A stretch of 64,000 nt of DNA, taken from contig WIXG01000166.1 in assembly GCA_009869945.1 (NCBI GenBank), positions 1 to 64,000 of the forward strand. The letters are read 5' to 3'. Source of the DNA: Mesaphorura yosii (taxonomy: Eukaryota; Arthropoda; Collembola; Poduromorpha; Tullbergiidae). This document shows, one piece after another, positions 1 through 36,842 of this stretch. Below the pieces are notes generated by a model, which did not search any database, had not been told where the DNA came from, and was given only the letters and a program-made list of their open reading frames with translations. How positions within the stretch are numbered: the first letter of the stretch is position 1; each line of letters starts with the position of its first letter. The translations under genes were made by a program, and so were the position numbers.

Positions 1-86
1 CCCGTGTAGTCTGTTGTGGGGGAAGATGGATCTTCCGTATCTCCCGTGTAGTCCGTTGTGGGGGAAGATGGGTCTTCCGTATCTCC
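1..86. repeat. 42-bp coding minisatellite
   Basis: Two near-identical 42-bp units (1-42 and 43-84) followed by the start of a third. The units differ by a few substitutions. On the minus strand each unit encodes DTEDPSSPTTDYTG, so the period is exactly 14 codons and copy-number changes keep the frame. The array continues beyond the left edge. Confidence 0.85.
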
Positions 87-707
87 CGTGTAGTCCGTTG
101 TGGGAGGCGGCGATTCAGTTGTAATATCCTCGTAGAGCACCTTGATCTTATCGATAATAACACCAGCGCCTGGCACTACTATGACAAGGGTCTGAGAAGG
201 AAGAGATTGTACTGTAAGTGTCATGATCATTCTTCCCCAGGTTTATACTTAAGTCAAGTTGCTTACGCTATCGTCCTGTATTCCGAAGTCCTGAATATCA
301 ATTTTCGTCAGTTCCCAATGGTTTTTGATGGTAAGGTTGATAGGTTCTGGCGCATCATCGACGCTTAATCTTAGTCGGTTCTCAATTCCAGATGGAAAAT
401 ACGCTTGGAAAGTCAAGAACTTCGGAGGTTCAGTTATTCCAGTTGTGTACAACCGTATTTCAATCACCGAGAATCCCGCACCGATGCATCCGGTCCAATA
501 TCCCCGATTTGAGTTGAACGGTGGCGTCGTTTGACCTCTACAGACCAATGGAATGTTTTCCCAGGTTTCGTTGTACACTAGTCCAACTTGAAACCAGGTA
601 AAGCCGTCCAGGTGTGATTCAACATCTAAGACAAGCGACGACTGAGCAAGTGCGTGTGTGAGACTGCAGAGAAAAATAACCACCACGATGACACGTGAAA
701 CAGGCAT
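1..707 (-). CDS. Secreted Ser/Thr/Pro-repeat protein, 5' part (runs off the window)
   Basis: Two exons are visible, 267-707 and 1-191, joined at phase 0 across a 75-nt intron (donor GTAAGC, acceptor TCTCAG). The start is placed at the ATG at 707, which opens a clear signal peptide (MPVSRVIVVVIFLCSLTHALA). An upstream in-frame TTG at 737 would only add charged residues. The mature N-terminal region (about 120 residues) has two cysteines and one NETW and one NLT glycosylation sequon. After the intron comes a beta-like stretch (VIVVPGAGVIIDKIKVLYED), then a Ser/Thr/Pro linker made of a 14-residue repeat. I do not recognise the fold; the look is that of a secreted or cuticular/matrix protein with a carbohydrate- or ligand-binding head and a mucin-like linker, which is inference. 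The 3' end lies outside the window. The intron length is a multiple of three, but it contains two in-frame stops. Confidence 0.7.
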
Positions 708-737
708 ACTCCTTTCTTTGAACTCTGAATTTGGCAA

Positions 738-2193
738 TAAAAATTCTGAACACGGAAGAACGTTGCTGTCTAATGTCTAATGTGTACTAGTTTTGACTTT
801 CCATGTGAAACTGGCAATAACCGTGTTACAAGTCGTCCCAATGAACCTGTACACACCAGGCCACAAGTCATTTTACACGATGACGACATACTTTGACATG
901 AGCCAATTAAAATGATAACTCGGGTCTCCAGTCACTACAAACGCTAGCAAAGCGCCAAGAACATGTGCAGATTTCCATTTACATGCTCTGTTATCACCCA
1001 ATTACTGCAATTGTAGAAGTACGTGCTCGCTTATAGCTAGAAGAGAGAATCGCTGTCTTTGTAGTGTCATACTTGGCCGGCGATGCTGATAAACACAATT
1101 GACTTGATTCTATGGCTCTTTCAATTGATTATTGCATCACGAAATAAAATTCCTCGTGACTAACACGCTTGGCACTTGGAATTCACATCAAAATGGGAAT
1201 TTGATCATGCTTAGAGTGATTGGGACCAATATCCACATAATTTTGTCACGTTGCACGAGAATGGTTTGTCAGTGAACGAGGGAATTCCCTGGACCTTGGC
1301 TCACAGTCGTCAAGAAGTGAAAGTAGTGACGTTCGAGGACACATTGTAATATCAAGGTATTGTGTTCAGTTGAGGTAGGGCGATTCGTGATGCTTATGAA
1401 TCAAGAGGTCGTAAACACTTGACTCAACGTTAAGCCCTAAATCCGTTTTAATCGCCACCTGTCAATTTAATAGTCTAGCTGCGCGTTATGCAGGATCAAG
1501 AGCGATTAGTACGCAATTGATGCTGGCTACAAAGTTGTGGCTGTGGCGTGGCTCGAGGCATCTCCATTTCTGCGATGATTAAATATGAGGAATCTCATAA
1601 TTGTTCCAAGTACCCAATTATGAGATTGCGCTGTTACTGCCTGTTGGTGATGAGCTGCATTCTTGCATCATCCTCAATCCGGAATAATCCAGTTAGGATT
1701 GCAATTAACATCCAATTGGAAGGCTTTTCAGTAATGCTCGACTGTGCGTGATGAAGGCTTGACATTGTTCTGATCATCACGCAGTGCATGTGGGCCTCCG
1801 AAGTAGTTATCAAGTATGCGGTTTCATTCAATTCAGCCAAAGCCATGTTCTCTTATCAGTATTTAGAAATTTGAAGCATGTGGGAAAGACGATATGGCAC
1901 ACATAGTAGTGTTTTCTGTTTCTGTCAATGAAATTGAAATGAACTTGCTTGCTTTCACGCGGCTGATTGGGTACTTTACAGCATCTTCCTTATCAGATTC
2001 GGAGGGCAAACAAGATTCTTCCGCAACTCATACACAACCTCGAGTTCCCAGATAAACTCCATGCTGTTGGCTTCATAAGTGTTTTACAAAATATATTATA
2101 CACACTATAGTGCAATAGACAAGTACTTTGGTTGATTTTATTTTCATTCGTGAGCTAAGATTTCCGACCCAATTGCAAGTGCTGAGGCTGAAA
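738..2193. other. Intergenic, no gene seen
   Basis: Spacer between the secreted-protein gene and the end of the diverged cullin gene. It should hold the promoter of the former and the 3' UTR of the latter. The short open frames here (for example around 1550-1850) have no splice-supported extension and no recognisable domain. Confidence 0.6.
2137..2142 (-). terminator. Poly(A) signal of the diverged cullin gene
   Basis: AATAAA on the minus strand, about 55 nt after the stop codon at 2194. Confidence 0.6.
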
Positions 2194-5100
2194 CTAAGCG
2201 ATGTAAATATATTTGTCGCTCCCGTCTTCGGCGCGTTTCATGTACTCTCTCTGAATCAAGTTTTCAATACATTTCTGCAAATATTCAATGAATTTCAATG
2301 AATTTATGACAAATTGCGATTCGCAAAAAAAATAAGTGAAACCCTGTCTTACTCGAATCGCGACAGAGTCGGGTTGAAATTGATTGTGAGTTTGATTCAC
2401 AACTGCCAACTCAAGTTCCTTGTGGGTGACGGTTTGGCGTGTCTTCATGATTTTCAGAATATGACACTGCAAAACAAACTTCCTGCTCTCCTTGATCGTA
2501 TGCTCGTGTTTGTCTGCCTCGGCCCTTTTCTCAAATGCCAGTGTGCTCGGAAGTGTAACACGGTATCGATGATTCGTGTATTCCACATTCAGCCTGACAC
2601 CTGTGTCGTTTGTGACTTCATCCGATCCATTTACATTCTTTTTGATTAGAATGCCAGAAGACGTCAGTGTGTCCAGCACCTGGAGTCATGGCGAAGTTAA
2701 TGCCAGTCAGATTTTGCTTTGAATGTGCTGTCTGTCTGTCTTACATTTGAACACAATTCTGGAGTCATGCTTGTGAGTTCCCGGAGTTCCTCAAAGCGAT
2801 GCTGTGCTGCCGTCGTGTTGTACTGCAGCAGAATCGCCATTTGAAACAGGTTCAGTTGAAGAATGTGAGGCTCCTTAAAGCAGCTACAGTTTAGTTCGCC
2901 CTTTGAACGATTGTGCAACCAAATCAACTTCCGGCCTTGATGCTTTCCATTAGTGTAAAATTCCACGAAGTTGTTGATGGACGACTCGAACTGTAAATAG
3001 GGAATTGAATTTTCACCGGTATGAGCCACAACGACTATTGAATGCTGTTAAAATCTTACTTCTTGTGGCAGCGAGACGTCGCTGTTCATAACGTGCTTAA
3101 AGGGCCAGGACCCAGAAGTCAGGATGAGTGGTTGAAAGTCGAATGGAACTGGAACTTCCTTCTTCGTCGTGAACTGCTTAAATTCGTCGTGGAGGTCTTT
3201 GGAAATCACAATGTCCTGGGAAATTGTAGACGAGAAAGAAATTTAATGTGATACCTTTTGGAAGTCAAAGCTTAAATTCACCTTGTACATAATCGACAAC
3301 TTGTTCGTGTACTCAAAACCGCTATGCTGCTTGAATTTGGTTATCATCGCCTGCTCCGCGTCGTCGCTCGCCGAATTTTGGCTAATCAAACGGTTCGCAA
3401 GTCGAACCGAGTAATAAGTTTGAAATGCGTCTTTGTCCAGCAGAAACTGGAAGATTTGAATCTGTCAGGAAATGTGAATCCACATACAGAAGGAAATACA
3501 CAAAGCATGCACTGAATCATGTTTCCGACTCCTTGCTATCAGCCTTACAATGCCATCCAACGACTTATCGTCCACTGTGCGGCCAGACTTGCGCAAAATC
3601 ATATCCGCATATTTCGCAATCAGTTCGGCAGATTTCTGCGAAGAAAGAGCATCTTGAGTGACCGCATTGTTATTCACAAATGCTGCGCAGGCAATGTCCA
3701 AAGCAGACTGGAAGGCAGTGTTGCTGTTAAACGCTTCTATGACCAAGTTTTTGAACCCATCGTGTACTCTCAATAGAGTTTCAGTGTACAGTTTTGGATC
3801 CTGGGGTAAAATTGAATAGAATGGAAGTTGCAGAGTTCTAACTGAATTACTAAACGAATTGTCATTAATTACCATTGCATCCTTATTTTTGTATGCCTTG
3901 ACCAAATTGAGAACGACTGTCTCTCCGTGCGTCCTGATGTGTTCGGTGAACAAATGACAAAGCGGTGGCAGTTCGTCACCCAGACGGTAGACCAAAGTGT
4001 ACGTGCGCGCTAAATCTTCTAGACTCTCCTTTCCCAAAAATACTGTGAAACTGTTCCGGATTTCCTCTACATGAGCCCTGATCAGCGCATCGTCAACGAC
4101 AACCAGAAGCTTCGAGAAGCTTAAAGTTGGGAGGTACGTCCGCGTACGCCCTTCTTCAAGAGCGATCTCTGTCTCAACCTGCGACCAGGACCAGGAGAAG
4201 GTAAAGGAAAAGGTTGACGAATTGCTTCAATCAACCTACCATCTTCATGTATTCTGCGATTGCTCCTTGATGGCAAGAAATGTAATTCTTTGCCAACTTG
4301 CTAAAATAGTTACTCGTAACCGTGATTAAATGCTGTTCGAGTTCTTCCTGGTAAAAATGTGGATCCAGTGTTAATTGCGTGAAGGAGTCGATGATAAAGG
4401 CTTCTGAAGATTCCGAGTGCAGAGAGTCGGGATTGTGTACCGCATTTGTCAATCCTGAAATGAAATTTATAACCTGTCTTATCTGAAGCAACTGATGACT
4501 AATTACGATGACACACTAAACTCCATTTCCTATTTACCTAACTCAATGTAAGAGTAAATCACTTGTTTCAGAACATTCTTATGGGCGCTGGAGACTTGCA
4601 ACCGATCCTTCTCGTATTCACACAGAATTTCTTTCAATAGCTGAAATTAGAAATTAAATGTGACAATTAGACGCAAATCATGACGGAAGCTATTGCTTGA
4701 CTTACATTCTCCTTAATCATTTCGAAGACGGTACTCTTCCACAGGTCGACTGCTAATTGATAAATCAGGAAGCCTTTGCTGGACTCTCTGTTTTCTCCCG
4801 GCTCATGATGGATCCCTTGCCTGGAATAGAAGCTGGTAGAAACGAACCAGCTCGCTGAATTCGCAACATGCATTGAGTACCGATTCAGGTAACTAAAAAC
4901 TCGATTGACGGACTGTGAATTGGTCTTGAAAGCCTCCCATTGGTCGTTGTATAGTTGCAGCAGTTCGAGTCCTGTCTTTGAGCTGAGACCCTGAAACCGA
5001 GAGTAAATAGGATTAACTGCGCGCCATGTTTGACGTTCAGCTTTCCACACAAACACACACGATGACTTCACGTACGTCAGCTTTCTCTTTGAGGATGTCA

Positions 5101-5504
5101 GTCAGGAGAAGGGCCAGTTGTTCGTACAGTCGCTTGCCAACAAAATACACAGACCCTGCCTGGTTTCCCGCGTCGCCATCCGGCCACTGCTTCCGACGGG
5201 AGCTCCCACGTGTTGAACTCTTGCTGTCAATCAGCATGAACGTTTGCGGACGACACATGCAGTAGTTATAGACTTTCCTGGAACCGAAACCGGTCTGGAC
5301 ATGGACGTGCAATGAGAAGCTTTGGTGTACGATATTTGTCACAAGACAAACTTACGAGTACAGCTCAATATAACGAGTTCGGCTGATGGGCTTCGACTGG
5401 TGAATCTCTCGGACTCCGTTTTCAATGTCACTCCACATCGAGACAAGTGGGTCATGTGTGTGGCTAACAGGGTTTTGTTGCCTGCCGCTAGCACTGAACT
5501 CCAT
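2194..5504 (-). CDS. Diverged cullin-1 paralogue
   Basis: A full-length cullin of 813 residues in 13 exons: 5356-5504, 5076-5277, 4881-4990, 4706-4820, 4538-4640, 4240-4454, 3873-4178, 3549-3800, 3282-3461, 3060-3215, 2745-2990, 2353-2679, 2194-2274. All junctions are GT-AG and the total length is divisible by three. Cullins scaffold RING E3 ubiquitin ligases: N-terminal repeats bind the adaptor, the C-terminal domain binds Rbx. Landmarks kept: the IELYSKVYNYC start region, FVNNNAVT, the NRLISQNSASDDAEQ stretch, GSWPF, GKHQGRKLIWLHNRSKGEL, and a C-terminal winged helix. The neddylation motif reads ILKIMKTRQ, keeping the acceptor lysine (about residue 757) where the neighbour reads IVRIMKMRK. 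The last exon matches the canonical copy at 13 of 26 residues. It is intact, so more likely a fast-evolving functional paralogue than a pseudogene. It lies immediately downstream of Cul1 on the same strand. Confidence 0.93.
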
Positions 5505-5808
5505 GATGGAATGTCGTCTGGAATGTACGCACGTTGCTTGGCACAAATCACTTTTCCGACTCCAACGCGTAACATGTAACCACACGAGCGGTCCTAGCGC
5601 GTCTTGAATATTGCCGTTGATCTTAGTAAACGGTTCCTTGACCTAATTTTTGGTGAGAGAATTGTGTTTACGGAAATTATGCTGCGCCGTGTCGTAACAA
5701 AGACAACGAAATCCAACATGGCAGCTGATGGCTTATGAAATGAGGAGGTAGCAAAGTGGCGTGGCCCAGACGCACTCCTGCTTCGTGCATCAAGAGTACG
5801 AGTATTAT

Positions 5809-5814
5809 TTTATT
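5809..5814 (-). terminator. Poly(A) signal of Cul1
   Basis: AATAAA on the minus strand about 155 nt after the Cul1 stop. It leaves only about 300 nt before the start codon of the downstream cullin copy. Confidence 0.55.
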
Positions 5815-5969
5815 CACTTAAAATTACAAGATTAATCAGTACAAATTGCTATCGCTGCTTCTTGGGCGATTTTCATTTTAATTGGTTAGTAAACAGATAG
5901 GTTTCAAGTTACAGTTACAATGAAAGAATTAGAAAAGCATTCACTAAAAGAAAAGAATATCAACAGCAA

Positions 5970-8900
5970 CTATGCCAGATAAGAGTAAGTGTCCTTTTGT
6001 CCTTCGGTGCGTTCGAGATACTCCTTCTCGATGAGGATGTCGATGCATTTCTGCAATGCAAACGAATACAATGCAATTGACTAGAAATAGACATGAAGAC
6101 ATGGCGCAATAGAGGATCTTCAATATTTCTTACCTTTATCATCGGAACCTTCGGGTTGAACCGATTTGCAAGCTGCGTAAGAACTTCGCTCACGAGTTGT
6201 GAGTGCTTCAGCTGCTTCCTCATCTTCATTATTCGGACAATTGCCGCTTGGATGAGCAGCTTCCGATCTTCTTCAATCACAGCGTGCGTTTGTTCTTGCT
6301 CTTGCTTCACTTCCGCCTTTAATGGGACGTTAATGTTCACACGCAGTTTCTTGTTCTTGTACTCAGTGAAGAGACTAACGACGGAGTCAGCATGCAGCTC
6401 TTCCTCGTTATCTGAGCAAATTAGCAGCTTCACTTTGATCATAATTTGGAGCATCTGGAAGCATCAAAGCGTACCATTGTAAAGTGTCGGGTTGTTGAAA
6501 AGAGAACTCACGGAATTTTTAACACTTACTCCTGCCTTACCTGAGACAGAATGTCTACTTTGAGCTTCGTTGCTTCAGCGAGTTCACTTATTTTGTAGGA
6601 CAATGCGGTGTTAAACATGAGTAGAATGGCTAACTGAAACGTTGAAGCCTGGAAGGTGTAGCGATTCTTGAAACAATTTGTCACAATGTCTCCCTTTGAA
6701 CGGTTGTAGAGCCAGCTCAATTTTCTTCCACTGTGCTTTCCATTATAAAATTCATTAAACTTGTTCACACTGAGTTCCAGCTGCCGAAAAAAACAAGAAT
6801 AGCAATTAGTTAACCAAAATAGGACAAAACAAAGCAGAGAAATCTGACTTCTGACAAGTGTCAGCGTCAGCATTTCTACTTTTGATATGGCATCATTGTA
6901 ACTCTCGTTTTCGGCACATTTGAGTTCATTCAATTTGAAACTAAATGCTTCCTACGGAGTGGAGTTAATCTGCCCCAATATTTCACAATTTGGAATGGCA
7001 CTAAACATGACTTTTCAAGTTGTCAATTTAGCGTGGCGATGGGGCATAGTAGCAGCATCCGTTTTGTGAGTATGTCAAGTAACACGCAATTACCTCACTA
7101 GGAAGTGCGAATTCAACGCACTGGGTGAAAGGCCACGAACCGGACGAGAGAACTTGAATTTGGAAGTCAATTCCTACAGACTCGCTCTTGTTCATCAAGT
7201 AACGTTTGAATTCATCGTTCAGATCTTTGGAAAGCCCAATATCCTAAAGGTATCAGATATCACAATGAAATAAATGTCTACAAAAGCGAAAGTGTATAAT
7301 TCACGCTTACTTGGTACATTCTTTGTAACTTTGAAGTGTACTCAAAGCCACAAGCGTGCTTCAATTTCGCAATCATGTTGGACTCCGCTTCGTCACTCGC
7401 TGACTGATGCTGCACAAGTCTGTTGGCCAACATTTTGCTGTAGAACTTTTGAAACACGTCCTTGTCTTCCAAATATTTGAAAACAACCATCTGGAATGAA
7501 GACAGCAAGTTGTCCAAATGCCATTCTCTCATTCATTACAAAACCAGACTCATAGACTCATTTAGCTGACTAGGGCGATTTACCACTTGGTTAAGAGTTT
7601 CCTCGAGTTCTTGGTCCTCTGGGTACTTGTTAGTTTTTTTCAATAATCCATCGCAGTACCTTGCTAGCAATTCTGGAGACTTTTGTGCAGTGCTAGATTT
7701 CAATGTCCAATAAATTAGGCAGTTGTTACAACCAGAGCTTAATAAAATTCTGACTTACCTCGTTACGGCATTGTTATTAATGAACTTCCCACAGGCCTTA
7801 TCTAATGCAGCAACAAAACCCGAATCACTCTTGAAAGCCTGCTGAACCATTTGGCTATATTTCTTATGAACGTCGAGTATCGTCCACACATATACTTTTG
7901 GTTCCTAAAAGTTAAATGAATTGTAGACATAGTTTTAGTATTTTCATTCCGACCTTCAACTTTAGATGAATTATGGCAGTAAGGAAAACTCACTATCACT
8001 TGCGACTCCGCCACCTCATCTAAGCATGCTAGACCTTGGTTACAAATATGATTTTCCAGATGCTCTTTCATGTTTCCGAGAGCATCTTCCAGACGAGCCA
8101 CAAGTTGATACATTCGACCAAGGTCCTCCTTCTTTTCTTGGTGGAGTAAATTTTTAAATTCTTGGTGCAAATTATCTAACTGCTTCTGAATTAAAACCTA
8201 AAGAGTAAGACACAGCTTATGCAATATTCACCTTGTTTGGGATATCTCAATTTCGTTGTAACTTACGGTCTCGCATGTCCTCATGAGCTTGCCCAAAGTG
8301 CTAATATGAAGGTAGAGTTCCACTCTCTTTTGCTCCTCCATCAATCGTTGCTCAGCCTATTTTTAAATAGTTAATAAATGAATAGTTTCCTTGCACAGCA
8401 TTAGCGGTCTTAAAACAAAATTCGTATACCTTTTTCATGTACTCAGTCACTGGATTTTGCTGCAGAAAACTAATTGATTCTTTCGAATAAAAGTTTTCCG
8501 TATCTTCTAAAAACTGTGACTCGAAATGTTTTTGATATGTTCCTAGAAGTGGACCAGCTCTTGAGTTGAGTGCCTGAGGTGTGGAAGGGGAGCCACTAGA
8601 GCTGCCTTGATCTTCATCCTCGAGTCCTGCAGGTACAATGTATATTAGTTCATTAAATGATTCAACTTACAAGGGTGGATAAGAGAACAGAGCGAAACTT
8701 TCGAAACCATTACCTAGCTCAACATAGGATCCGATAACTCCGCTTACAAGACTACTATTTATAGTTTCGCCATTTCTTTCTTTTTCAATCAACTTGAGAA
8801 CTGCATTTGTAACCTGAAATACCGAAATAAATTGACGTAACTAAATTTCCCTGAAGCACAAGAGCTGCGCATTCAACTTTGGAAAAACCTTAAAACTCAA

Positions 8901-9748
8901 CTAATTATGCCCTACCTGCTTATGAAGACGCCCGAATAGAGTTTCCTTCCATATTACAAGAGCAAGCTGGTATATTTCGTAAACACATTTTCGGCCCTCG
9001 TCACATTCTCTTCTCACCCAGTGTCTAAAATGAAATTGAAAAAATTTCATTAAGCTCAACTAAACAATTGTACAGTCTATTGATATAATGTACCTGTTCA
9101 AGTACGCACACACTCCGTTTAATACTTTAGAACTAAAACGATATTCTTCCCATTGTTTTGTATAAAACGTTAAAACTGCTTCTCCCATTAAATCTTCTCC
9201 TTCCTGTGAAAATGAAAGCACATCAAATTTTGCCAGTCTCCAGACAATTTTGAATATTAAATAATTAAAATTTACCTTAATCAGTTTGCTCAGGTATTGA
9301 TTCAAGAACTCCTTCAGACGCTTGTACAACTCTTGCCCCACGAACTGGGCTCCGCTGTTATGATTTTGTTGTCCATTACTGGAAGCATTACTCCCACCAG
9401 CTCGACTTCGGGTTCGGGTCGACACTAACCGATTTGAATTCCCAGAATTGGCACCAGTGGACTGCTGGTGCACGCTTGTGCAGTAGTTGTATACGTGCCT
9501 ACGAAGTTAAGTATAATTTACAGTTAAATCTGAAATCTCATGGTAGTTTTAATCATAAATTCTGACATGCTGATTACAGTTATGAAAACTTACGTGTAGA
9601 GCTCCATGTAGCGTGGCTTGGACATTCCGCTCCTCTCATAAACTTGTTCGATCCCCTGCTTTAAGTCATCCCAAATCTGATCCAGGTCAAAATTCTTACC
9701 ACTGACAGCTCCTGCGGCCTGGGTGCCCCCAGAACGAGTACCACTCAT
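5970..9748 (-). CDS. Cul1: Cullin-1, SCF ubiquitin-ligase scaffold
   Basis: Fifteen exons give 804 residues: 9594-9748, 9276-9498, 9094-9203, 8916-9024, 8714-8813, 8430-8626, 8267-8356, 8197-7994, 7759-7904, 7584-7692, 7311-7490, 7094-7243, 6541-6780, 6134-6454, 5970-6050. The protein reads as a close Cul1 orthologue: [20 protein letters not shown] and YMELYTHVYNYC at the N terminus (Skp1/F-box side), [48 protein letters not shown], the cullin-homology [19 protein letters not shown], and the neddylation site IVRIMKMRK with the acceptor lysine near residue 748. It ends in DTYSYLA, typical of Cul1. In cells it bridges Skp1-F-box receptors to Rbx1 and E2. It is slightly longer than the roughly 775 residues usual for the family, owing to an Asn/Ser-rich loop after VHQ and a Gly/Ser-Pro insert in exon 6. 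Confidence 0.97.
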
Positions 9749-11478
9749 CTTTGGTATCAGTATCAGCAAAAGTTACTACACTTGGAAATCGTAATTTAAT
9801 TCGTAATCACAACAGTTGTGTTGCGAGTTCGAGTTCAAGTCCAGCAGTGTCCTCGAGTGCTTCCTTAATTATTTCGCAACGATTGAAGCAGGAAGAGAGA
9901 TCTGTAACACGAATTTGTTCTACTATTATAATTACTTGACCAAGAACTTCGAAAAACGAGGATAATTTTAATCGAGTTTTAATAGAATTGGCTGTTATTA
10001 TTTCTCATCTCGAAAGTCTCGATCTCAGGAACAAAAGAGAACTGCAAGCAAGTCATCCAAAAGGAGAGCGAGTAATTTTGTAAAGGCGATTTTTTGCGAG
10101 CGAGCAGAGAGGAGTATGAGTACAAAAACACCACGAAACTGTTTGAATGTTTATGCCATCGATTGCCAGTGCGAATAACCTTTCTTGGTTGTACGAGTCG
10201 CGAGTTGGTAGATGGCAAGGCACGGCGAGTCGTGAGCACAAAAGTAAAGCAAATACGCCGTAAGTTCCTGTATTGATTTGCACATAACAGCATACAGCAA
10301 CTGGCCGTACACATTGCTAAACATAACAGTACATAATACATAACACATAACACATACACATAGCCGAAAGTAGATTGTAAAAAAGTTCAAGTTTGGTTTT
10401 TTAAAATTGATTTGGACATTTAACTAAATTTTTACACGAAGGACTGAACTCCAGTGAACTTGTGCCAGTTTTTCAACTCTGTATTCATGCATTCGGACTC
10501 TTCATCGTGGAAGTACGATTTACACACTAATCGCAGTTAATCTCCGTGCTACACATGATCTTGGAGGGAAAATGAGTGCCCGTACCTGTACGTGATGCTG
10601 TGTTGCTAACTCTGAAAGATTGCTTAGAAGTTAGAAGTAAGTTTCAAAATTTACGAGCTCAGTTATGTAATTGACCTAATTTTTAGCAGCACTTAATGGA
10701 AGAGATTAAAATCGACTTGCTCGCTTGCACTACTTTATGTGTAGGCGACGATACTGATTATGTCTAATGCTTTGATCTTGCTTTCTTTCCTTTCAGGTCG
10801 AGTCTATAAATCTAAAATTGTCAATGTGAAGTTATTTCAACTGGGACGCCGAGTGTGAGTATTAACTACTTGGTAGTTGGAGTCGTGCTCGTGCCTGCTG
10901 GGGAGTCGACATGAAGTCTGCCATTCTTCCTACTCGAGATTGTTGTAAGTATGAATATTTAATTTAAACATGAATCATCAGCTTAGCTGTAAATCCAATC
11001 CGACTGAACTTCCCGTTCAATGAAAAGAGCTTAATCTTCATACTTCATATGAATATTTAAATATTTTCCCATTTAATTGGACAAGAGCAGAAAAGATGTG
11101 AAAGGTTATCCTTATCTTGTCATTTAGTCACCATCTTACAGCTTTTAATAAAATGATGCTTAGAAGAAAGCTTGATCTCTGACCTTGCTCTGCATTTCAA
11201 GCTCTACTGAGGCTGAACTCTAATTAATTGCGGCAGCTGTCCAACAACGTGTTGGAATATTAAATGGAACTTGTTTAAAATTTTCAATTGATTGAATTGA
11301 TGGCTTCGTGTGAGTTTGATAGTGTAACGCGTTTAAATGTCAGATGATGGAAAGTTCAATGTGTCAGTTCAGTGTAGTTTATGATAATGTGTAATTTTAC
11401 TTAATTTTCAGATGCGAGGTAGCCGTGAGAATTCCTAATCACCTTCAGCTTCAAGAGTTTCAGCAATAAGTGGTATTT
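9749..11478. other. Divergent promoter region and CTDSPL2 5' leader
   Basis: Head-to-head spacer between Cul1 (minus) and CTDSPL2 (plus). The right part has the look of spliced 5' UTR exons of the plus-strand gene: acceptor at about 10797 (ctttcctttcag), donors at about 10855 (GTGAGT) and 10945 (GTAAGT), and a final acceptor at 11411. A short AT-rich run of TAACACATAA-like units lies around 10319-10365. No other coding exon was seen. Confidence 0.5.
11412..11438 (+). promoter_or_regulatory. Upstream ORF in CTDSPL2 leader
   Basis: The last leader exon begins directly with an ATG after the splice acceptor and encodes MRGSRENS before a stop, 40 nt ahead of the main ATG at 11479. Such a short uORF may reduce or gate translation of the phosphatase; this is inference from position only. 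Confidence 0.45.
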
Positions 11479-14400
11479 ATGAAATTACGAAAGTCTACAA
11501 GGTTGGCGATGTGCTCCAGGAGGAGGGCACAGCCAGCTGATTCGACTTCCAAGAAGAATGTCAAGTTCAAACCGCAAAAGAATAAAAAGATGGCACAAAG
11601 TAGGTCTTCGAAACAAGTGCCGAAGAATGTGCTAATCCGGGAGATAATGACAGGTTCCACACCAGTCGTGTGCATCCGGAAGACATCATTCACAATTCCA
11701 CCGGTGGTTACAGATTCAATTATGACACGGCGCATCTCTCAGCGACTGCAACGAATTAACTCCGATGATTCGATGAGGCCTGCTCCAACAAGAGTATTGC
11801 GGTCTAGGAACCTGAATTCATCGACAAATTGCTCCAGTTCAAGTGCTTCCCGTGTAAAACACGATAACAAAGCAACTTGCTCTTCGAAAGCCAGCAATAG
11901 GGATCGTGGTCCTGCCAAATTGGGAAAATGTGCCGACAAGAGCAAGTTGGTAAAATCCAGCAAGCACAAAGGAACAACAGCCAGCAAGTCATTACATCAC
12001 AAAAACAGCTCGTGCCGTGGCCTGAGAGGAAGTAATTCCTTGAAGCCTATGACTGCAACCTCATCGCCTGATACGAAAACTATTTCCGATGTGGAGCCTG
12101 TAGAACCACGTGGTTCTATACTTTCTGCTCCAACCCAAGCGAGTTCCATGCCAGCGCATGTTGGCTCCATTTCCACTGCAGAAAAAAATTCTACTACGTA
12201 CAATCAAAATGCAAATTGTCCACAAGTAAGAAACTTGGATAAGGTTCCCATTTCTTCAGTCAACGAAGCAGGCTTTTCGGCAGAACCTTCTCCCAATGTC
12301 GCCCGCACTAGTTGCGAAACTGTTAATCCAAACGACAATTCCAGTTCTGAATCCTACAACGGCGAAGAGGATTTAACAGCCTACGAAGAGTTTGATTTCC
12401 TGCAAGAGGAGTACTGTCCAAACGGAGGTGGTTACAGTCTGAGTGTCGGTTTTGGGCCAACCACCTCTACGAGGAGTTGTGATTTTATGGCAAATTCTTC
12501 CGAACTGGGATTAGTTGGTTCAAACCAGACGAGGTCTCATCCGTCAGTTTGGTCATCATGTGCGTCTCCGACTACCGTGACTGACGCCGGACGAACTGTG
12601 ACGTCAGGGGATGGCTACGTCTACAACGACCTTTCTAATAATTTCGGCGTAGAAGTGGAAAATGAACAATCCTCATCCTCTCAGTCGATTGATGCCTCAA
12701 CTGGCAATTTTTACGGTGCTTGTACTTCCGTTAATGATAATCATTCGTTTCAGTTCAACGCTCAGAAACCTTGTTTACCCGGGTCAAATTCTCCGTCTGC
12801 CAGAAACGAAAACGAAGTTGAGAGCAATAGCAATGGTTCGGCTGGGCGCACTGTGGAGTACAATCATTTTTTGCCTTCAGCTTCTGTTAATGGAACTGTA
12901 GTTGGTGTGAACCAAGGAATTCAAAGTAACGTCCATTGCACAGCACCTGACTCAACCTCTTTCAATCCATTGAACGTGCCTTCCTTTGCTAACAACAATT
13001 ACTGTTACAGCAGCGTTAGTCCAACGGGCCAGTCATTTCAGTCATTCCACCCGGCATCATCCCAGTCATCGCCATACCAGCACCAGCTAGTTCAGTCACA
13101 CTCAAACATCAACGACGGATCACCGATTGCGTCAGCTGTACCTCAAATGTACTACTACAACAGTAAGTTTTAGTTTTGTTATCAGAAGAATAATCTGACT
13201 TAATTACTTCTTACATTGCAAAATATTTGTCACTTGATGAGCCGAGAACTTCATTATTCAGAGTCTTACTCCTCGACTCAGACTTCAGCCGAGCCATCAA
13301 AAACCAAGTCAAGCTTACGGTCACAAACGCCGGAATGGCCGGAAAGATTTTTAATGTGTTTATTCGCTGACCTTTTGAACTTGCTCATACACCAGAATTT
13401 TAACTCTGGCGTTATTGTGTAATGTGACCGCCTGTTGTTGCTTCAGTCAATATAAAACATTCCAGTTTATTCTATTCAGATCCAGTTTCATTTATAAAAA
13501 CCAATGTTTATGGTAGGTCACAGACGCGTGTCGCAATAATTTATAGAACAGCAAAGGAGCAGCAGCAGCGGAAACTTATCTCGTGACTCAATAAGCAGGT
13601 CGACCGTTCCTCAGTCTTCTCAAGTCAGACCCAGGCCATGCAGATAACCTGATTTGCTGATTTTTCTGTCACCAATCAGAATTTCATGCAACCCATATTT
13701 AGTTACATCGAGTGAGGGTGAAATGAGGCGACCTTTCTAGTTTGTGCTGATATCTCGACCCCTTAATGCAATTTTGCAGTTGTGATAATCAGTTATTACG
13801 GCCAAAGCGTAAGAAGGTTTCAAGAACAGCAGAGGATCTGGCTATAAAATTGTGAATTGCAAGTCTCGAGACTTCTTTCATTGTTTTTTGCAAAGAGAGT
13901 TCAGCTTCGTAGTTGATAAACTGAAGCCCCTTTGGTTTTTGGAGTCAAGTTCATGTCAGATGGGAAGCGAACGATGTCATACCTAGCCCATATCGTGATG
14001 CGAGGAATTGTTGCTACAAGAACTGACTGATTTATTTAGTGTAATATGTGATTGTCGAAGACTGCATACTTTGACGTCAAGGAGCTTTATCATACCGTGA
14101 TTTTGTGCGCATAAAGTTTTAAAGCGACTAATGGGTGTTGCAGACTCAACTGGAGAATTCTACTACGACGATTACTGGGACAATTTCAACCCGTACTTCT
14201 TCATTAAGCACTTGCCACCACTCACTTCAGATATGATGGCGCGTGCGCCAGTTCTACCTCTGAAAACAAGAAGTTCGCCGAAATACAGCCTTGTCCTGGA
14301 TTTGGATGAAACGTTGGTGCACTGCAGTCTTCAAGAAATGGATGACGCTGCGTTTTCATTTCCTGTGTATTGTCAAGACTCTACTTACCAGGTAAAAAAT

Positions 14401-15137
14401 ACGGCAATGGATTTCTTTTTATTACCTCTCTTCAACACATCTTGAATTGCAATCGTAGGTTTATGGGCGAACCCGCCCCTTCTTCAAGGAGTTCCTGGAA
14501 GCCGTGTCCTCTCTCTTCGAGGTGATTCTCTTCACTGCTTCAAAGAAAGTATATGCAAATAAAATTCTGGACCTCTTGGATCCGGGCAGAAAATGGATTA
14601 AGTAAGTCCTATCCTATCACTCTGAAGAACCATCATCTAGCATAAGTGACAATTGGTTGGGGTTATGTAATTAACATTAATATCCGAACAGGTACCGCCT
14701 ATTTCGCGAGCATTGCATATGTGTGAATGGAAAATATATTAAAGACCTCAGTATTCTTGGGCGTGACCTTTCCAAAGTCATTATTGTTGACAATTCTCCT
14801 CAGGCGTTTGGTTATCAGGTAAAAGAATCCTTACAATTTGGCTTTAATGCATGTAATATGTGGATTTCGTTCAGAAAATAATAATTGCAATTTACTTATT
14901 TCAGCTTGAAAATGGAATTCCGATTGAAAGTTGGTTTGTTGATGAAAATGATCAAGAACTGATAAAATTGGTACCGTTTCTTGAAAGCCTGGTCAAAATG
15001 GTACGTAGACAGACGCAAGAACAAACGATAGAGCTTATGACTTTTATAACTTCTATGATTGTTTCTTTCAGAATGAAGACGTACGACCTCACATTCGCGA
15101 CAAGTTTAAGCTCTTCTCCTTCTTACCACCAGATTAA
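11479..15137 (+). CDS. CTDSPL2: CTD small phosphatase-like protein 2 (CTDSPL2 type)
   Basis: Six exons, 787 residues: 11479-13162, 14144-14391, 14459-14601, 14692-14818, 14905-15000, 15072-15137. The C-terminal 220 residues are a clear FCP/SCP HAD-type phosphatase: [10 protein letters not shown] lead-in, catalytic DLDETLVHC (the DxDxT motif), [59 protein letters not shown] and the closing [21 protein letters not shown]. The family dephosphorylates serines on RNA polymerase II CTD or SMAD-type substrates. The first exon encodes about 560 residues of low-complexity Ser/Asn-rich sequence with basic patches ([11 protein letters not shown]..., resembling the basic start of vertebrate CTDSPL2). It is much longer than in the vertebrate protein (466 residues in human) and is likely disordered. 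The start at 11479 is preferred over the in-frame GTG at 11470. The 0.98 kb first coding intron is unusually long for this window. Confidence 0.93.
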
Positions 15138-16082
15138 TGAACAAACGGGCAAATGTGGGGAACTAGAATTATCACGCGTACGCGCACATTCAATGTGATG
15201 TATAATGCTAATGGGTGGATCAAGCAGCTTTAGGTTGCAGGTTTTGTTCAATACACTGGAATATACTTTTCTCAACTTGGACAATTAAAAAGATGGATGA
15301 TGCTAAGGATTTTATATTTCCACACAAATCACACTTCCTTTAATCTCAAACTATATTTGAATAGATGTTGTTATTTCTTATTATTAGTTATCTACTACTA
15401 TTTGTATTTCTGACTTTAACGTTAGTATTAGTTAAATGAAACGAATTCCGTGTCTGGCAAGAAATTGAGAGACCACAGCTCATTTGGTTACTACAATGCA
15501 ATGTAGAATGTGTTAAATTTGATGCCTCGTCAATGGTATGACAATTGACTTCGCAAGTAAAAGTACAACGGAAGAAGTGAACTTGATTGTGGATTGTACC
15601 ACGCGCGTAGGCGCGTTGCGTGAGACTTTATTCTTTTAACTACTTCTGAGAGTCTTCTCTATTTATGTCAATGTCCACGACCCTCCGTAGATTGTTCACT
15701 GTCACCCAGCAATATAATTAGAGCATGTACTTTTGATATTTGCTGAAACAACATGCACAATAAGTGGCATTAATAAGTTAAGAATCAGTAATTTTATTTT
15801 AATGTTAGATTAGCACGAAAGTTTTAGTATCCGATGAAGTACGGAATAGACAGGTTTATTTTTTTAATTTGTTCTAGACTAAAGTTTAAATAATCGTTCT
15901 ACAGAGACGTTCACTCGAGCTTCTACTTTATGTTTTGTTCTATTACAGCTTTCGTTGTAGTTCTACCGTTTGTAATTTGTTACTGGCTGAAATGCTGGAG
16001 GGCTTGACCGGTGAAATCTTTAAGTTACTGGATAACTTGTTTTTAGATCACGAAATCGACTACTGACGATAGACTATTATGC

Positions 16083-17977: not shown

Positions 17978-20900
17978 ATGGTACTTAATTGTGTTTCTGA
18001 TGAATCTTTCGCAGAAATCGCGACTAACATCATTGTAAAGAAAGGAAAAGGAAACGAAGACATAATTGTGCCTACAGAACTTATTATCAGTACCGATATA
18101 GGTACCACGGTACGTTTTTCTCATCTTCCTTAAAATTGGCTTAAGCTGTTCACATTACTCCGTCCGTCAACTCACTTCAATTCAGTAAATTTAATGATTG
18201 ATTTGTGGTTGCAGGAAAACATTCAAGACAATCCAAACGACGAATTCATGAATTTTCTGATGGACGGCTTTGGCTCCGAGTCCTACATGTGTCTTGATTA
18301 TGCACTCTTGGAAAATGTTGCACCGGCAATGGATGGTGAAACCGTAGCTAACGTGGCCAATTCTAACGTGGTCCCTGTACCAGATAATTCAGTAGAAACC
18401 GACTGGAGCAATCAATTCAAAGAAATTGATAGCAACGACCTTATTGATTCGCCTGATCCTTTTGGAATTAAGAGCCTGGCAAAATATATCTTTGATCAGC
18501 CAGCAGAAACCACTATCAACAACATGTACGAGAACACTGACATGAACTCATTTCCTGAAGCTGTGACTCCAGGCGCATTTGAGGCAGAAGTCCTTGCAGA
18601 CGTGAAACAAGAGGCAGTGCCTAAGACCAGAACCCGTGGCCGAAAACCGAAAACCAGCTTGATCTCCGATCCCAGCCTCTCGGCAGCACATACCATGGAA
18701 CTTAGAGACGTAAAGCCATCTTCAAGCAGCCTCAAACGAATTTTTGATGAAGCTTCAAATATGTCATCTACCTCCGTCAGCGGTGGAAAGAAAATGAAGA
18801 AATACATGCAAGATTCTGACGATCCAGCAGTCAAAAATGCGAAAGCTGCAAAACTGAATCGTATACGAAAGAAGGAAGAAATGGAATCTATGAAGACTGA
18901 GCTTGAAATCTCCAAGAAGACGATCGAGGAGTACAAGTTCGCCATGGCACAGACCCAAAAGGAGCTGGCCGAGCTGAAACGAGAGAAAGAAGCTGTCCAT
19001 GCGAAGTACTTGACATCCAATGGTCTCCGTGGTGTCGCACCCAGTATACGTGACTACCTCTCAACGACCATTCCTGCTCTTCAAGAGGCCTATGGTAGGT
19101 TTGAAGTGGAATTTTCACAAGTCTTCGACGAAGTCTCCTTCTCCCATAACCCAAACATTCCGGAGCAGGGGACTATGCTCGGCAACCCCAGCAGACAGTT
19201 CACAACTGTGGTCGACATGGACAACAGAAGGCTTCGCGTGGATTACGACCCATGTAAGTTATGATGCACATGCTATCATTACCATTTCCCTCAAGTGAAA
19301 GCTTCAATTGTCCGTGCCCCCAAATTTCAACGGAAGGTTAATTTTGAGTGTGGGTGAATGGCGATGTGAATTTGTATGCATGCAAGAATGTGAATATTTT
19401 GGGAGTAATTATTGGCTTTATTCAAGTAACTTAACTTAGCTTGGTTTTGTCAGTTCCTCTCTGCATACTTAAAGAGAAGTCGTAAGGATTACTATTAAAT
19501 CTATTAGTAATTCCTTTTGACGACAAAACTGCTTAGAATCCATTATGTGGTATCGCAACTTAATACATTAGTTGGCAATTGACAGCCACAAATAATTCTG
19601 TGAGTGTAGGAAGGAATCTAAGGTTAAAAGTGAATAATACCTGCTTAGATGTTCCAACTTGAGGTAAAAGCTAATAAAAAGATCTAAAATCTATCTCTAT
19701 TTTCTATATCTGCACGTATCTTAGACCGTCATAGATAAGATTAGCTTAGTTTTGTCATTAAAGATTAAAGGCTTGATTGGCAGAATTATTTCCCTGAAAT
19801 TAAATATAACTATTCAGTGACTTCTATTTTAAGCTAGAGGTCACGCGCTTTGTTGACTGTTGACTTTGTTGGTTATAACTTATATAACCTAAATCAACGA
19901 GACAACGAGGGAGTGAAGAAGTCTAGAAACTAAGATAGGGTAAAATGGTTTTAATTCGGTATGACCTGAAGCCAACATGTCAACAATTGCCATTCATTTC
20001 TTCGTAAGTTTTTACTGTCGGAATGGATAACAGCTATATTAGGTTAGTAAGATTACAGAGTAGGTAGGTTTAATAGATCAATGGTAAGAACTCAGAACTA
20101 TCATTTCGCTTAATTAATTAATCCTGTTGTGGTTAATTAATCCTACGTTTGCTTTTAATCTTCTGTCTGATTGTGCCTTCCTTTTCAGTAACGTTACGAA
20201 GCTTCGATCTGCACCTGCTACCATTAAATTATTATTATTATGATTATTTAATGAAATCCTGATCCTCCAATAAATCTTGTTGTATTTTCTAATATAGGTA
20301 CACCCGACCTGTCCTCGGTGTTATGTTCTGATGCAGATTTTTTAAATAATGGGAGTCCAGCTGCGGGATAACGTTTCAATTTAATTGTCCATGAATTTAA
20401 CGTTGACATTTTGGATTTACGATAACGGCCTGGAAACTGTAAAGAATGGGAAACGTGGGTATTTAGACGAATAACGTACCAGAACAGAAGCACCGGGTGC
20501 TGGCGAACAATGGGCAAGGAAAGAAACAGGCCTCGTGGAGAGGGTTCAAGAATGGAGATCAATGAGGACAGAATGCAAGGACAAACCGTGGGACTTGCGG
20601 TTTTAGCAAATGACCTCGAATGATTGATGGAACCCTTTATGAAGCGGACTGTTCATTAATAGGCTAATGAACACTCTCCCCGAATTCATCCTCACCTCCC
20701 CACTTCCTCACTTATCATCCTCTTTCTATTGATTTCTCGTATTCTCTTTCTCTGCGTCTAGATAAATATTATATCCTCCCCTAATGGAATGGAAGCAATT
20801 CCAAGCCAAGATGTTAAGACGCTTTAAGATCAAGCTTTCCTGTTAACCGATTTCAAGATATCCTTTTTAGTTGACTCTTTAAAGCTAAAACTCAAGTCCA

Positions 20901-22095: not shown

Positions 22096-24558
22096 CTATT
22101 CAACTTGAACAACGCGCATGGTGTTGGTGAATCCACTCCCAGCCTTCCATCCAGTTAGCACTATGACCGTATCACCAGTTTTGACCATGCCTCTCTTCTT
22201 GGCGTACAAAACACCGACCTGCACTCGTGCTTGCACGTCATCCAGCCAGTCGCTTAACTTTTCACCTGCTCACATTAAAAACGCAAATTATATTCCCGGA
22301 AAGGAAAGAAACAATTTATCTGGCCAGGATTCACGCTTCACCTTCGTATTGAATCGGCAGAATGCCCCTGTACAGATGACACTGTCTTGCAACCTGCGCA
22401 AAGCGTGTAACGGCGATGATGGGGCACCGGGGCCGATACTTGGACACCAAATGAGCGGATCTGCCCGATGTGGTAATGACAATAAAAGCTGCCGCGTTGC
22501 ATTTGTGTGAAGCCTCAACTCCTGCAATTGCCATCGTATGCGCCGTGTCCACGGTGGAAGCAACCTTGAAGATCGAGCAAGAAAGACATGCAGCATGAAT
22601 AGCGTGGAGAATTCATTAAGTTTTGTCCCCCATTTGCATGCTCACTTTGCTTACGAGGTCGTTGAATAATTGCTTGTGCCAAAGTGCCGCTTCGGCTTCG
22701 ACACAAATGTTTGCCATCGTGCGCACCTGGAAGAGCAATCAAATTATAGAAACTTACAGTTTCTCATTTACTTTCTTGTGGAGGCATTTCTTACGCATTC
22801 GAGCGGGTAATCGCCCTTCGCCGTCTCCCCAGACAGCATTACACAGTCCGCTCCGTCCAGAATAGCGTTAGCCACGTCGGAAGTTTCGGCTCTGGTTGGC
22901 CGGGGCTTCTTCACCATCGATTCCAACATCTGAGTAGCACAAATCACTGGCTTTCCTTCCTGCAAATTAACGCGTATGGAATACGAAGTGACGAGGAATA
23001 TTATATTCAAAGAATTATCTGATTGCTACCTTATTGCATTTTGCGATCATAGCCTTCTGCGCTAGAAACACTTTCTCGGGTGGAATTTCAATTCCTGGAA
23101 TAGCGAAATGGGGCATAAATTATCAAAGTCATGGAGAACTACCTGAAAGAAAGTCCTTACCAAGATCGCCTCTTGCAACCATGATACCGTCTGAGCAAAA
23201 ACAAATCCAGTAAAATCAGCGTAAAAATGACAAGGTCGGTGTACATTTTTGTATGCGGGTTTACCTGAAGCTGCAATGATTTCGTCCAAGTTCTTTACGC
23301 CTTGATGATTTTCAATTTTTGAAATAATTAAGATATTTTTGCCAGCTTCACCTGCAAGACAATAGCACATCAGAAACGCCAAATTCCCGTGCTACGTTCA
23401 TGCGTGGAAATATAATGTCAGGTTACCTAGAATTCTCCTGATCTCATGAACGCCGGCCGCATCACGAATGAAAGACGCGAAGATCATGTCAACTCCTTGC
23501 TCGATTCCAAACATAAAATCCGATCTGTCCTTCTCCGATACAGCAGGAAGATCAACAGGTACACCAGGCTGCAAGCAATTACAGAAATGTAAGCTACGAA
23601 TGCTCAGTGCGTCTTAATCGAAGGTTAGATTTACGAGGAAAGGGCAGACATACCAAATTACAACCTTTGCGGCTCCCGAGTAGTCCTCCATTTTCAATTT
23701 CGCAAACAAGTCCATCCGCCTCTGTCAAATCAGCCACAAGGAATTAGGAAATGATAGAGGCGTGAAGGGTAAACCGATTGAACATAAATTGGCTCACCAA
23801 TCTTTTGAACAATCAGCGAAATAAGACCGTCATCAACAAACACACGATTTCCCGGCTTGACCACCTTCACAATATTTGCGTAATCGACGTATATAATTTT
23901 ATCGCTGCACTTCTCAGAGTATGCCGCGTCGACGGTTAACTTCACAGTTTCGCCCTTTTTCATCTCCACTTCGGCGGAAGCACCCTAAAGACAGACACAA
24001 TAATTCACCACTGCTAACTCTAGCGTAGTAATTCCTGACTTACTCCTTCGAGAAGCCCGGTTCTGATTTCCGGCCCTTTTGTATCCAATGCAATTGCAAT
24101 TGGAAATGCCAAGCCGAGCTTCTTCGAGTAGTTTGCAGCCGCTGTGCGAACATTGCGAATAGTCTCAGCGTGGTATTCGTGCGACCCATGTGAGAAGTTC
24201 ATCCGGGCGATATTCATTCCCGTAGCCATCATCTTCTCCAGCATCTCGGGTGACTTGGACGCTGGACCGATGGTGCAAATGATTCCTGACAGGCGGTTGT
24301 ACGGTGACTCGGAGTCAATGTCCAGGGCACACATGTGGTCCAGGTGACTGGACGCGTACGCGGCCTGCATCTGTGCTTTCGGCACCTTTGAATCTCCACC
24401 AGGACCCATCTGCAAGAAAATTACCACCAGTAATTATCGACAAGTCAATGTAGGTAGTGTTTTCAAGGGATGTCAAAAATTGACGCGATGCGCGACTAGT
24501 TTTGTCTCAGCCACCACTTCCTTACCGTCGTATCCACATTCTCGTTAAACCAGACCAT
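22096..24558 (-). CDS. Pyk: Pyruvate kinase
   Basis: Twelve exons, 535 residues: 24526-24558, 24044-24409, 23798-23984, 23654-23721, 23427-23568, 23265-23351, 23161-23190, 23030-23094, 22795-22959, 22655-22726, 22342-22564, 22096-22265. Last step of glycolysis: PEP + ADP to pyruvate + ATP, cytosolic. Visible signatures: [32 protein letters not shown] (nucleotide/PEP-binding Arg), [13 protein letters not shown]-domain [15 protein letters not shown], active-site [10 protein letters not shown] with catalytic Lys and the metal-binding Glu, [43 protein letters not shown], and a C-terminal domain ending SGFTNTMRV. The GSGFTNT loop belongs to the allosteric fructose-bisphosphate site in this family. 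The first 11 residues ([11 protein letters not shown]) come from a small separate exon. One exon is only 30 nt (GIMVARGDL), and the acceptor of exon 11 is AAG rather than CAG/TAG. Confidence 0.97.
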
Positions 24559-35500: not shown

Positions 35501-36842
35501 AGAAAGTTGACGGTGTCATTCGCAATGGAATTTGGATAATAATCTTGTTTATAATTACTGCCATATCTTATTTTTACACCATTGCGATTTACTGTGTAGT
35601 TGTAGAATCTCGAGTTCATCAGAAGAGCGTTCCATTCGTCCTGCGTCATTGGAATCTTTTATTATCAAGCACTTGGAAATCTGAACGACTCCTGTTTACT
35701 CACCCAACCATACGGAATGTGTGAGCCGTCATATTTATTTAGATACTTTCCAATGTAAGATGTGTAGTAACCAGAATCCCATAAATAAGAGGCAAATGTC
35801 CTTCTCTCAAAGTTCTCTCGCCATTGAATTGAACTGCAGTTGTCGTTGTTGGTGTAAACTTGATGATTATGAACGTATCTACATCATAAGGACATCAACC
35901 ACGTTATAATTAGTATTACAACGTGCAAATCACTAGTGCGCTCTTACAATCCAGTGAGAATCGAACTTCGAGATGGGCAACACATCGGCGTGGTCACGTA
36001 TCCATGCCGGAACTCAACGCCTTGTTCCCGGAAAGCTTTCAGGGTCTCAGGCATATACTCCATGCTTCCTGAGATTCAGCGTACAATCAGTTACAGTCCT
36101 TCAAAATGTAAACAAATCATTCAGCCTATCCTTCTTACCAAGCTCAATGTCCTGGTCATCTGTCAAAATGAGAATAATGTTGGGCCTCGAATCCTGTTTT
36201 ACGGGCTCTAAAATTAAATAAAACTCCTGTATTATTGACCAAGCCACAGCAAACTTACCGTATAGCAAGTTAAATACCCATTTCGTCGTAGTTGCCATCA
36301 GTCAAAATGTCATCTGCTGTAGCATCGTTGTCAGCTTCTTTAGATTCCTCTTTGTCGTATTCGTCTCCATCGTCCTCATGTTCGTCCTCGTCGTCATCCC
36401 CCTCATCTTCGTCTTCATCCAGATCCTCATCGGCCGAAGCAGGTTTTGGCTTAGATGCTCGTTGTTGTGGCTGTGGTGGTGGCAATACGAGCGGAGCCAC
36501 CGCCCAGGAACTATCACCAGCATTCGTGACATGTGATCCGGATCTTCTGCCGTTGCCAGCACCCAACCTCTTCTTCTTATGCGATACCTCTTCAATGTTT
36601 CCAACCTGGCGGACTGGCAACGATGACTTAGGAATAGTTGGTATGTCGATTTGTAATTCACTCGGGAGCTTGACGTTCCTAACTCGAGGGGCTTGTTGAG
36701 AAGGTGAAGATTTGCCAGCATCTTCATCTTGAACGGATGAGTTTGCGCATATTTCACGTCCTGCTAGCATCCATCCAGTAACTAATATTATAATTAAGGT
36801 CCTACTAGTTCCACGTCGTATATGATACAACACCTTAAACAT
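32551..36842 (-). CDS. Sulf1: Extracellular heparan sulfate 6-O-endosulfatase (Sulf)
   Basis: Seven exons, 1291 residues: 36278-36842, 36139-36207, 35948-36068, 35704-35878, 33015-35640, 32698-32944, 32551-32623. Sulf enzymes remove 6-O-sulfates from heparan sulfate chains on the cell surface and so tune Wnt, FGF and BMP signalling. Seen: a hydrophobic N-terminal segment ([14 protein letters not shown], signal peptide/anchor), metal-site [13 protein letters not shown], formylglycine motif [12 protein letters not shown] (Cys near 241), [76 protein letters not shown]. Then a long basic/acidic hydrophilic domain, a furin-type RTKR site, and the conserved Sulf C-terminal domain ([53 protein letters not shown]). 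It is longer than human SULF1 (871 residues) because of an added N-terminal segment with a very acidic run and an expanded hydrophilic domain. Confidence 0.96.

Follow-up and report, generated by a model that had tools for sequence, protein, structure and literature searches.

A strongly diverged but intact cullin-1-class gene in tandem with CUL1 in the collembolan Mesaphorura yosii

CUL1, the scaffold of the SCF (Skp1, cullin, F-box) ligases, is generally a single-copy, slow-evolving gene since it must fit many partners. Diverged extra cullins are nevertheless described from a worm and a fly, and here we analyse a comparable case in the collembolan Mesaphorura yosii. The window, a stretch of 64,000 nucleotides (contig WIXG01000166.1, positions 1 to 64,000), carries on its minus strand two complete cullin genes in head-to-tail order: copy A, which by its sequence is a normal CUL1, and copy B, in which nearly two thirds of the residues are different. 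The best reading of copy B is that of an old, maintained and altered CUL1-class scaffold, and not a fresh copy.

Among the closest described systems is C. elegans CUL-6. According to PMC11238739, this cullin is induced by infection and proteotoxic stress and functions together with Skp-related, RING and F-box proteins in a complex of the SCF type, and thermotolerance requires its neddylation lysine, K673. The survey of Marin (2009, PMC2785787) reports CUL1 to CUL5 in all animal groups, in addition to the restricted CUL7/PARC (chordates) and a diverged Drosophila group; this last group, CUL-Dros, is assumed there to be a recent fly-specific duplicate and is assignable to no main cullin class. 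In two further papers, alleles of CG11261, a Drosophila gene of this group, are reported to modify an eye phenotype (PMC5678704), and its transcripts to occur in the testis with apical enrichment (PMC6154878).

Copy B is of the same kind as these diverged extra cullins and is distinct from them by its CUL1-like score and its position beside CUL1. It is like CUL-6 in being an extra cullin that keeps the equivalent acceptor lysine, a likeness drawn from the published description of CUL-6. Unlike CG11261/CUL-Dros, here contrasted by its published description, it has CUL1 as a clear best score and stands in tandem with it. Compared with CUL1 itself, copy B is alike in its full length, domain order, NEDD8 lysine, C-terminal tail and top score in the Protein Data Bank (PDB), and unlike in its 36% identity to both A and human CUL1 (A itself reaches 68%), its retention of CUL1-specific residues at 51 of 185 positions and its strongly altered helix H5 and neddylation domain. 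Among the matches listed from the open-licence PMC literature, none described a diverged CUL1 in tandem in an animal. A second copy kept for so long may show which parts of the cullin surface tolerate change while the machine is presumably retained, and would provide a natural test of new SCF variants arising through co-evolution with duplicated genes for Skp1 or F-box proteins, as the CUL-6 complex of C. elegans suggests.

The tandem pair and its cullin class

The pair spans exactly 2194-9748, and its features are as follows.

5970..9748, minus strand: copy A, predicted canonical CUL1, 804 amino acids, 15 exons (hand-made spliced model, Pfam, identity to human CUL1, PDB CUL1 score)
9748-9594, 9498-9276, 9203-9094, 9024-8916, 8813-8714, 8626-8430, 8356-8267, 8197-7994, 7904-7759, 7692-7584, 7490-7311, 7243-7094, 6780-6541, 6454-6134, 6050-5970, minus strand: exons of copy A
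2194..5504, minus strand: copy B, predicted diverged CUL1-class cullin, 813 amino acids, 13 exons (hand-made spliced model, introns, Pfam, best PDB match CUL1)
5504-5356, 5277-5076, 4990-4881, 4820-4706, 4640-4538, 4454-4240, 4178-3873, 3800-3549, 3461-3282, 3215-3060, 2990-2745, 2679-2353, 2274-2194, minus strand: exons of copy B
5505..5969, minus strand: gap of 465 nucleotides from the stop of A to the start of B (from the spliced models)
6224..6226, minus strand: codon of the NEDD8-acceptor lysine K748 of A, context IMKMRK (aligned to human K720)
2443..2445, minus strand: codon of the NEDD8-acceptor lysine K757 of B, context IMKTRQ (aligned to human K720)
5356..5390, minus strand: end of B exon 1, start of the stretch of the SKP1-binding helix H2 (...RYIELYS, running on into exon 2; by alignment, helix assignment after published CUL1 structures)
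4821..4880, minus strand: B intron 3, 60 nucleotides, in frame (read-through would add 20 amino acids)
2137..2142, minus strand: AATAAA polyadenylation-type signal about 50 nucleotides past the stop of B (motif)

Both coding sequences have a length that is a multiple of three and contain no internal stop. GT-AG borders are present at the 14 introns of A and the 12 of B, 26 in all, which is partly so by construction, as GT-AG and cullin similarity guided the manual choice of splice sites. Splicing of B intron 3 is preferred to read-through, since an intron of the same position and phase is present in A. In copy A, intron 12 (6781-7093, minus strand) has 313 nucleotides, the remaining 13 introns having 66-102. 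Within the gap, AATAAA is found at 5814-5809 and ATTAAA at 5882 on the minus strand; with an AATAAA after A and another after B, separate transcription units for the two genes are plausible. A scan of the gap for sigma-70-type promoters was discarded as not meaningful for an animal gene.

The two genes are recognisably one gene duplicated. The first-pass annotation had placed two same-strand cullin-1 genes at 2194..9748, 465 nucleotides apart from stop to start, and both coordinates and distance are exact, as are the exon lengths it quoted for A and B, counted from the last exon (81/81, 321/327, 240/246, 150/156 and 180/180) and for exon 3 (110/110). The matching exon layout that it described holds for the introns, all 12 introns of B coinciding with introns of A in alignment column and phase, but not for the counts, 15 exons in A against 13 in B, introns 7 and 9 of A being absent from B. 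The proteins align end to end with 36% identity (blastp, E = 3e-167), and the last exon is half different, as had been noticed, with 13 of 26 residues identical. Similarity at the level of DNA is nearly gone, blastn at E <= 1e-3 finding only three stretches, two of 68 nucleotides and one of 40. Together with the protein identity this rules out an allelic copy or an assembly artefact, the latter having been named beforehand as a finding that would undo the duplication. No third cullin copy was found in the 64-kb window, all tblastn matches at E <= 0.01 lying within A and B; in collections of viral and prokaryote contigs there were pattern matches but no relative by tblastn, as expected for an animal gene.

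CUL1, CUL2 and CUL3 served as the human reference proteins. Copy A reaches 628 bits against the Pfam Cullin model (cut-off 33), carries Cullin_Nedd8 as well, is 67.9% identical to human CUL1 and scores 1114 bits against CUL1 in the PDB. Copy B retains both cullin domains, Cullin (PF00888) at 478.2 bits and Cullin_Nedd8 (PF10557) at 68.9 bits (cut-offs 33.2 and 36.9), so that the cullin-homology core is kept as had been stated, and its identity to human CUL1 is 36.4%. The neddylation lysine is kept too: in the alignment K757 of B and K748 of A correspond to human K720, which we take to be the NEDD8 acceptor. Against cullins of the PDB, B scores 471 bits for CUL1, followed by CUL2 (287), CUL4B (206), CUL3 (182) and CUL5 (164), and by this score it belongs to the CUL1 class. 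There are 185 sites at which A and human CUL1 agree and neither CUL2 nor CUL3 shares their residue; B matches CUL1 at 51 of them, CUL2 at 21 and CUL3 at 19. In the best tree of five proteins (A, B and human CUL1 to CUL3) B adjoins the group of A and CUL1, whereas placing it with CUL2 or CUL3 is not rejected by the approximately unbiased (AU) test (0.43 and 0.28 under LG+G4), the tests on these five-protein trees resting on 2,000 replicates, which the program warned are too few; when restricted to the first half of the alignment, the analysis prefers the tree with B beside CUL2. The description of a CUL1-class tandem pair with a second copy strongly diverged yet intact is supported.

Maintenance and age of copy B

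Between A and B, identity at codon positions 1, 2 and 3 is 0.51, 0.61 and 0.29, where 0.25 is expected by chance at position 3. The comparison of nonsynonymous with synonymous change (dN/dS) by the Nei-Gojobori method (NG86) gave a dN of 0.68 and no computable dS; synonymous positions are saturated. When the coding sequence of A was changed at random at 30, 50 and 60% of its sites, means of 27, 36 and 37 stops appeared (300 runs each, with a minimum of 14), as against none in B. Of 147 positions invariant in human CUL1, CUL2 and CUL3, A keeps 136 and B 100. From saturated synonymous change, a perfect frame and the kept invariant positions, we infer an old age for B and selection acting on it over most of its existence. 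On balance we consider it fairly probable that B arose from CUL1 by an old tandem duplication and that selection has kept it as an additional SCF-type cullin scaffold.

By these measures B appears old whether it split off within the lineage of A or earlier, and on the order of events the LG-type trees and the counts of shared residues are in conflict. B may instead be an ancient cullin lineage which split before A and human CUL1 separated, still stands beside CUL1 and was lost in the commonly studied animals, a proposal that we find doubtful though by no means far-fetched. Five-protein trees under LG+G4 and LG+F+R3 favour B outside A and human CUL1 by 14.6 log units, and the tree with A and B as sisters received AU p values of 0.034 and 0.045, respectively, and a Shimodaira-Hasegawa (SH) p of 0.07. 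In simulations with B as sister to A (100 with shared and 100 with redrawn site rates) none reached 14.58 and 1 and 0, respectively, were above zero, so that simple long-branch attraction is no explanation under those models. The first half of the alignment rejects the pairing of A and B (AU 0.028), and the second half also favours B outside A and CUL1, the pairing not being rejected there (AU 0.25). A run with six taxa included fly Cul1, in this and all later uses an unverified sequence, and among the three of six trees listed the best had B outside (-8417.6), as compared with A and B paired (-8426.0) and B sister to A and fly (-8430.8). B is also near parity at the 239 sites where A differs from human CUL1, carrying the A residue 43 times and the human one 36 times.

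Other observations argue for a later duplication within the lineage of A. Of 162 sites with a residue found only in A, B shares that residue at 29, a larger proportion than the 95 of 887 for residues found only in one of the others (one-sided p = 0.009, without fly); with the unverified fly sequence the counts become 20/134 and 99/983 (p = 0.064), these and the odd-one-out counts with fly being taken on 696 gap-free columns and numbered by column and not by residue. A quartet free of the long outgroups favours A with B, though not significantly, as fly with B is not rejected (AU 0.23), and B with human CUL1 is disfavoured, with an AU p of 0.015 but a Kishino-Hasegawa p of 0.057 and an SH p of 0.064. 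The quartet sites that pair B with one partner only number 11 for A, 5 for human and 12 for fly. Where one of A, human CUL1 and fly is the odd one out, B shares the odd state at 11/73 (A), 4/34 (human) and 12/101 (fly) sites, so that A is not favoured. The C20 and C60 models do not separate the trees, their likelihoods being worse and their branch lengths at the ceiling. The tight tandem and the 12 of 12 common introns fit a later duplication better, in a comparison of the introns of A and B, and the account of Marin (2009, PMC2785787) gives all animal groups the five genes CUL1 to CUL5, which also speaks against a further ancient lineage. Even on the tree pairing A and B, only about a quarter of the branch of A predates the duplication (0.076 before and 0.201 after, LG+G4).

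A combined proposal would make B an unrecognised old animal cullin lineage, a tandem duplicate of CUL1 formed before this animal's lineage and that of vertebrates parted or very soon afterwards. It would have remained 465 nucleotides from CUL1 ever since and act as another SCF-like scaffold, with an adaptor and NEDD8 regulation of its own; we regard this as distinctly doubtful.

Regional divergence and possible function

Region identities were counted over the columns present in all five proteins, with boundaries set by the analyst in human numbering. Helices H2 and H5 of CUL1 we take, following published CUL1 structures, to be the Skp1-binding face and the C-terminal core to be the part holding RBX1. 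The C-terminal core of B is better kept than its N-terminal part, 115/265 against 109/349 residues being identical to human CUL1. Within the N-terminal part, B is identical to human CUL1 at 4/26 positions of the N-terminal stretch, 10/21 of the H2 stretch (CUL2 2, CUL3 5), 6/27 of the H5 stretch (CUL2 9, CUL3 8), 32/120 of the remainder of the first repeat and 57/155 of repeats 2-3. The corresponding counts are 50/100 in the four-helix bundle (CUL2 66, CUL3 45) and 65/165 in the alpha/beta and winged-helix A (WHA) region (CUL2 56, CUL3 46). CUL1-specific residues are kept at 5/13 sites in H2 and 45/146 elsewhere, setting aside H5 and the neddylation domain; the regional total is 51/187 and not 51/185 as it includes two extra sites where B has a gap.

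On this pattern B is probably the second scaffold of an SCF-like ligase. Its C-terminal core would hold a RING protein of the RBX type, K757 would be neddylated, and the half-kept helix H2 would let the N-terminus hold a Skp1-type adaptor together with F-box proteins. The class residues lost from H5 and the neddylation domain may tune B to another adaptor paralogue or set of regulators and alter its control by NEDD8 enzymes, and B could then ubiquitinate other substrates, or act in a restricted tissue or stress state like CUL-6 of C. elegans. The first-pass annotation suggested an additional SCF scaffold whose adaptor choice is altered, and this is compatible with these counts. The suggestion is drawn solely from the pattern of residue retention, with the first SKP1-binding helix about half kept and the second helix and the neddylation domain nearly stripped; with the CUL1-specific residues of the latter two lost, changed use of adaptor or regulator by B is plausible. 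The accompanying suggestion of an altered RBX choice is left without specific support, as the C-terminal core is kept better than the N-terminal part.

Several observations, along with the tree preference for B outside A and CUL1, weigh against an old duplicate serving as an SCF-type scaffold. The neddylation domain of B has 31/86 residues identical to human CUL1 where CUL2 has 45 and CUL3 41, and since it is further from CUL1 than theirs, normal neddylation cannot be assumed. CUL1-specific residues are retained at 0/8 sites in H5 and 1/20 in the neddylation domain. The excess of such residues in H2 is not significant (5/13 against 46/174, Fisher p = 0.35), and the H2 window is outscored by 94 of the 754 windows of its length (21 residues). 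AlphaFold was run on the single B exon with most of the neddylation domain, from an alignment of two sequences, and gave an unusable model (mean predicted local distance difference test score, pLDDT, 50; predicted template modelling score, pTM, 0.31).

The divergence of the neddylation domain and the loss of CUL1-specific residues there and in H5 would also suit a competitor or decoy, in which B keeps some partner surfaces, is inactive through its altered neddylation domain or adaptor face, and sequesters RBX, CAND1 or Skp1, damping SCF activity. This appears unlikely: the acceptor lysine is kept, pan-cullin invariant positions are as often kept in the neddylation domain (24/34) as in the C-terminal core (47/65; Fisher p = 1.0), and no feature specifically indicates inactivity. 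That B is turning into a pseudogene under relaxed constraint is very improbable, for although its branch is long (1.1-1.4 substitutions per site under LG+G4, that of A being 0.20-0.25) and it has lost 42 of the 136 positions invariant in A and human CUL1 to CUL3, its 813 codons contain no stop or frameshift and its 12 introns have usable splice sites despite synonymous saturation, and its constraint still tracks the pattern of cullin conservation. A very recent loss of function is possible, one genome being considered.

Neighbouring genes in the window

The other genes of the window are described here for completeness. The NIF-domain phosphatase-like exons at 14101-15195 (plus strand) and the pyruvate kinase exons at 24023-24433 (minus strand) are ordinary conserved neighbours. 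In a single open frame of 947 codons at 32818-35658 (minus strand), residues 21-250 form a sulfatase domain; for the long stretch after it, an overlapping match to a sulphohydrolase C-terminal domain is the sole further assignment. Open frames without a Pfam match are found at 11470-13170 (plus strand; 567 codons, apparently rich in Ser and Asn), at 18134-19261 (plus strand; 376 codons, overlapped on the opposite strand by an open frame of 185 codons) and at 1-776 (minus strand), the last for a small secreted-looking protein. Directly downstream of this frame, at the edge of the window, lies a 42-nucleotide tandem repeat of 2.5 copies (1-104).

About 40 kb from CUL1, the exons at 48358-50037 (plus strand) encode an FBXO9-like F-box protein, the gene name being an assumption, with a tetratricopeptide repeat (TPR) match below the cut-off and an F-box-only C-terminal domain. 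Its presence near CUL1 puts two genes of the SCF pathway in one window, and this is probably a coincidental neighbourhood. The compact introns and the gene content of the window suggest animal DNA.

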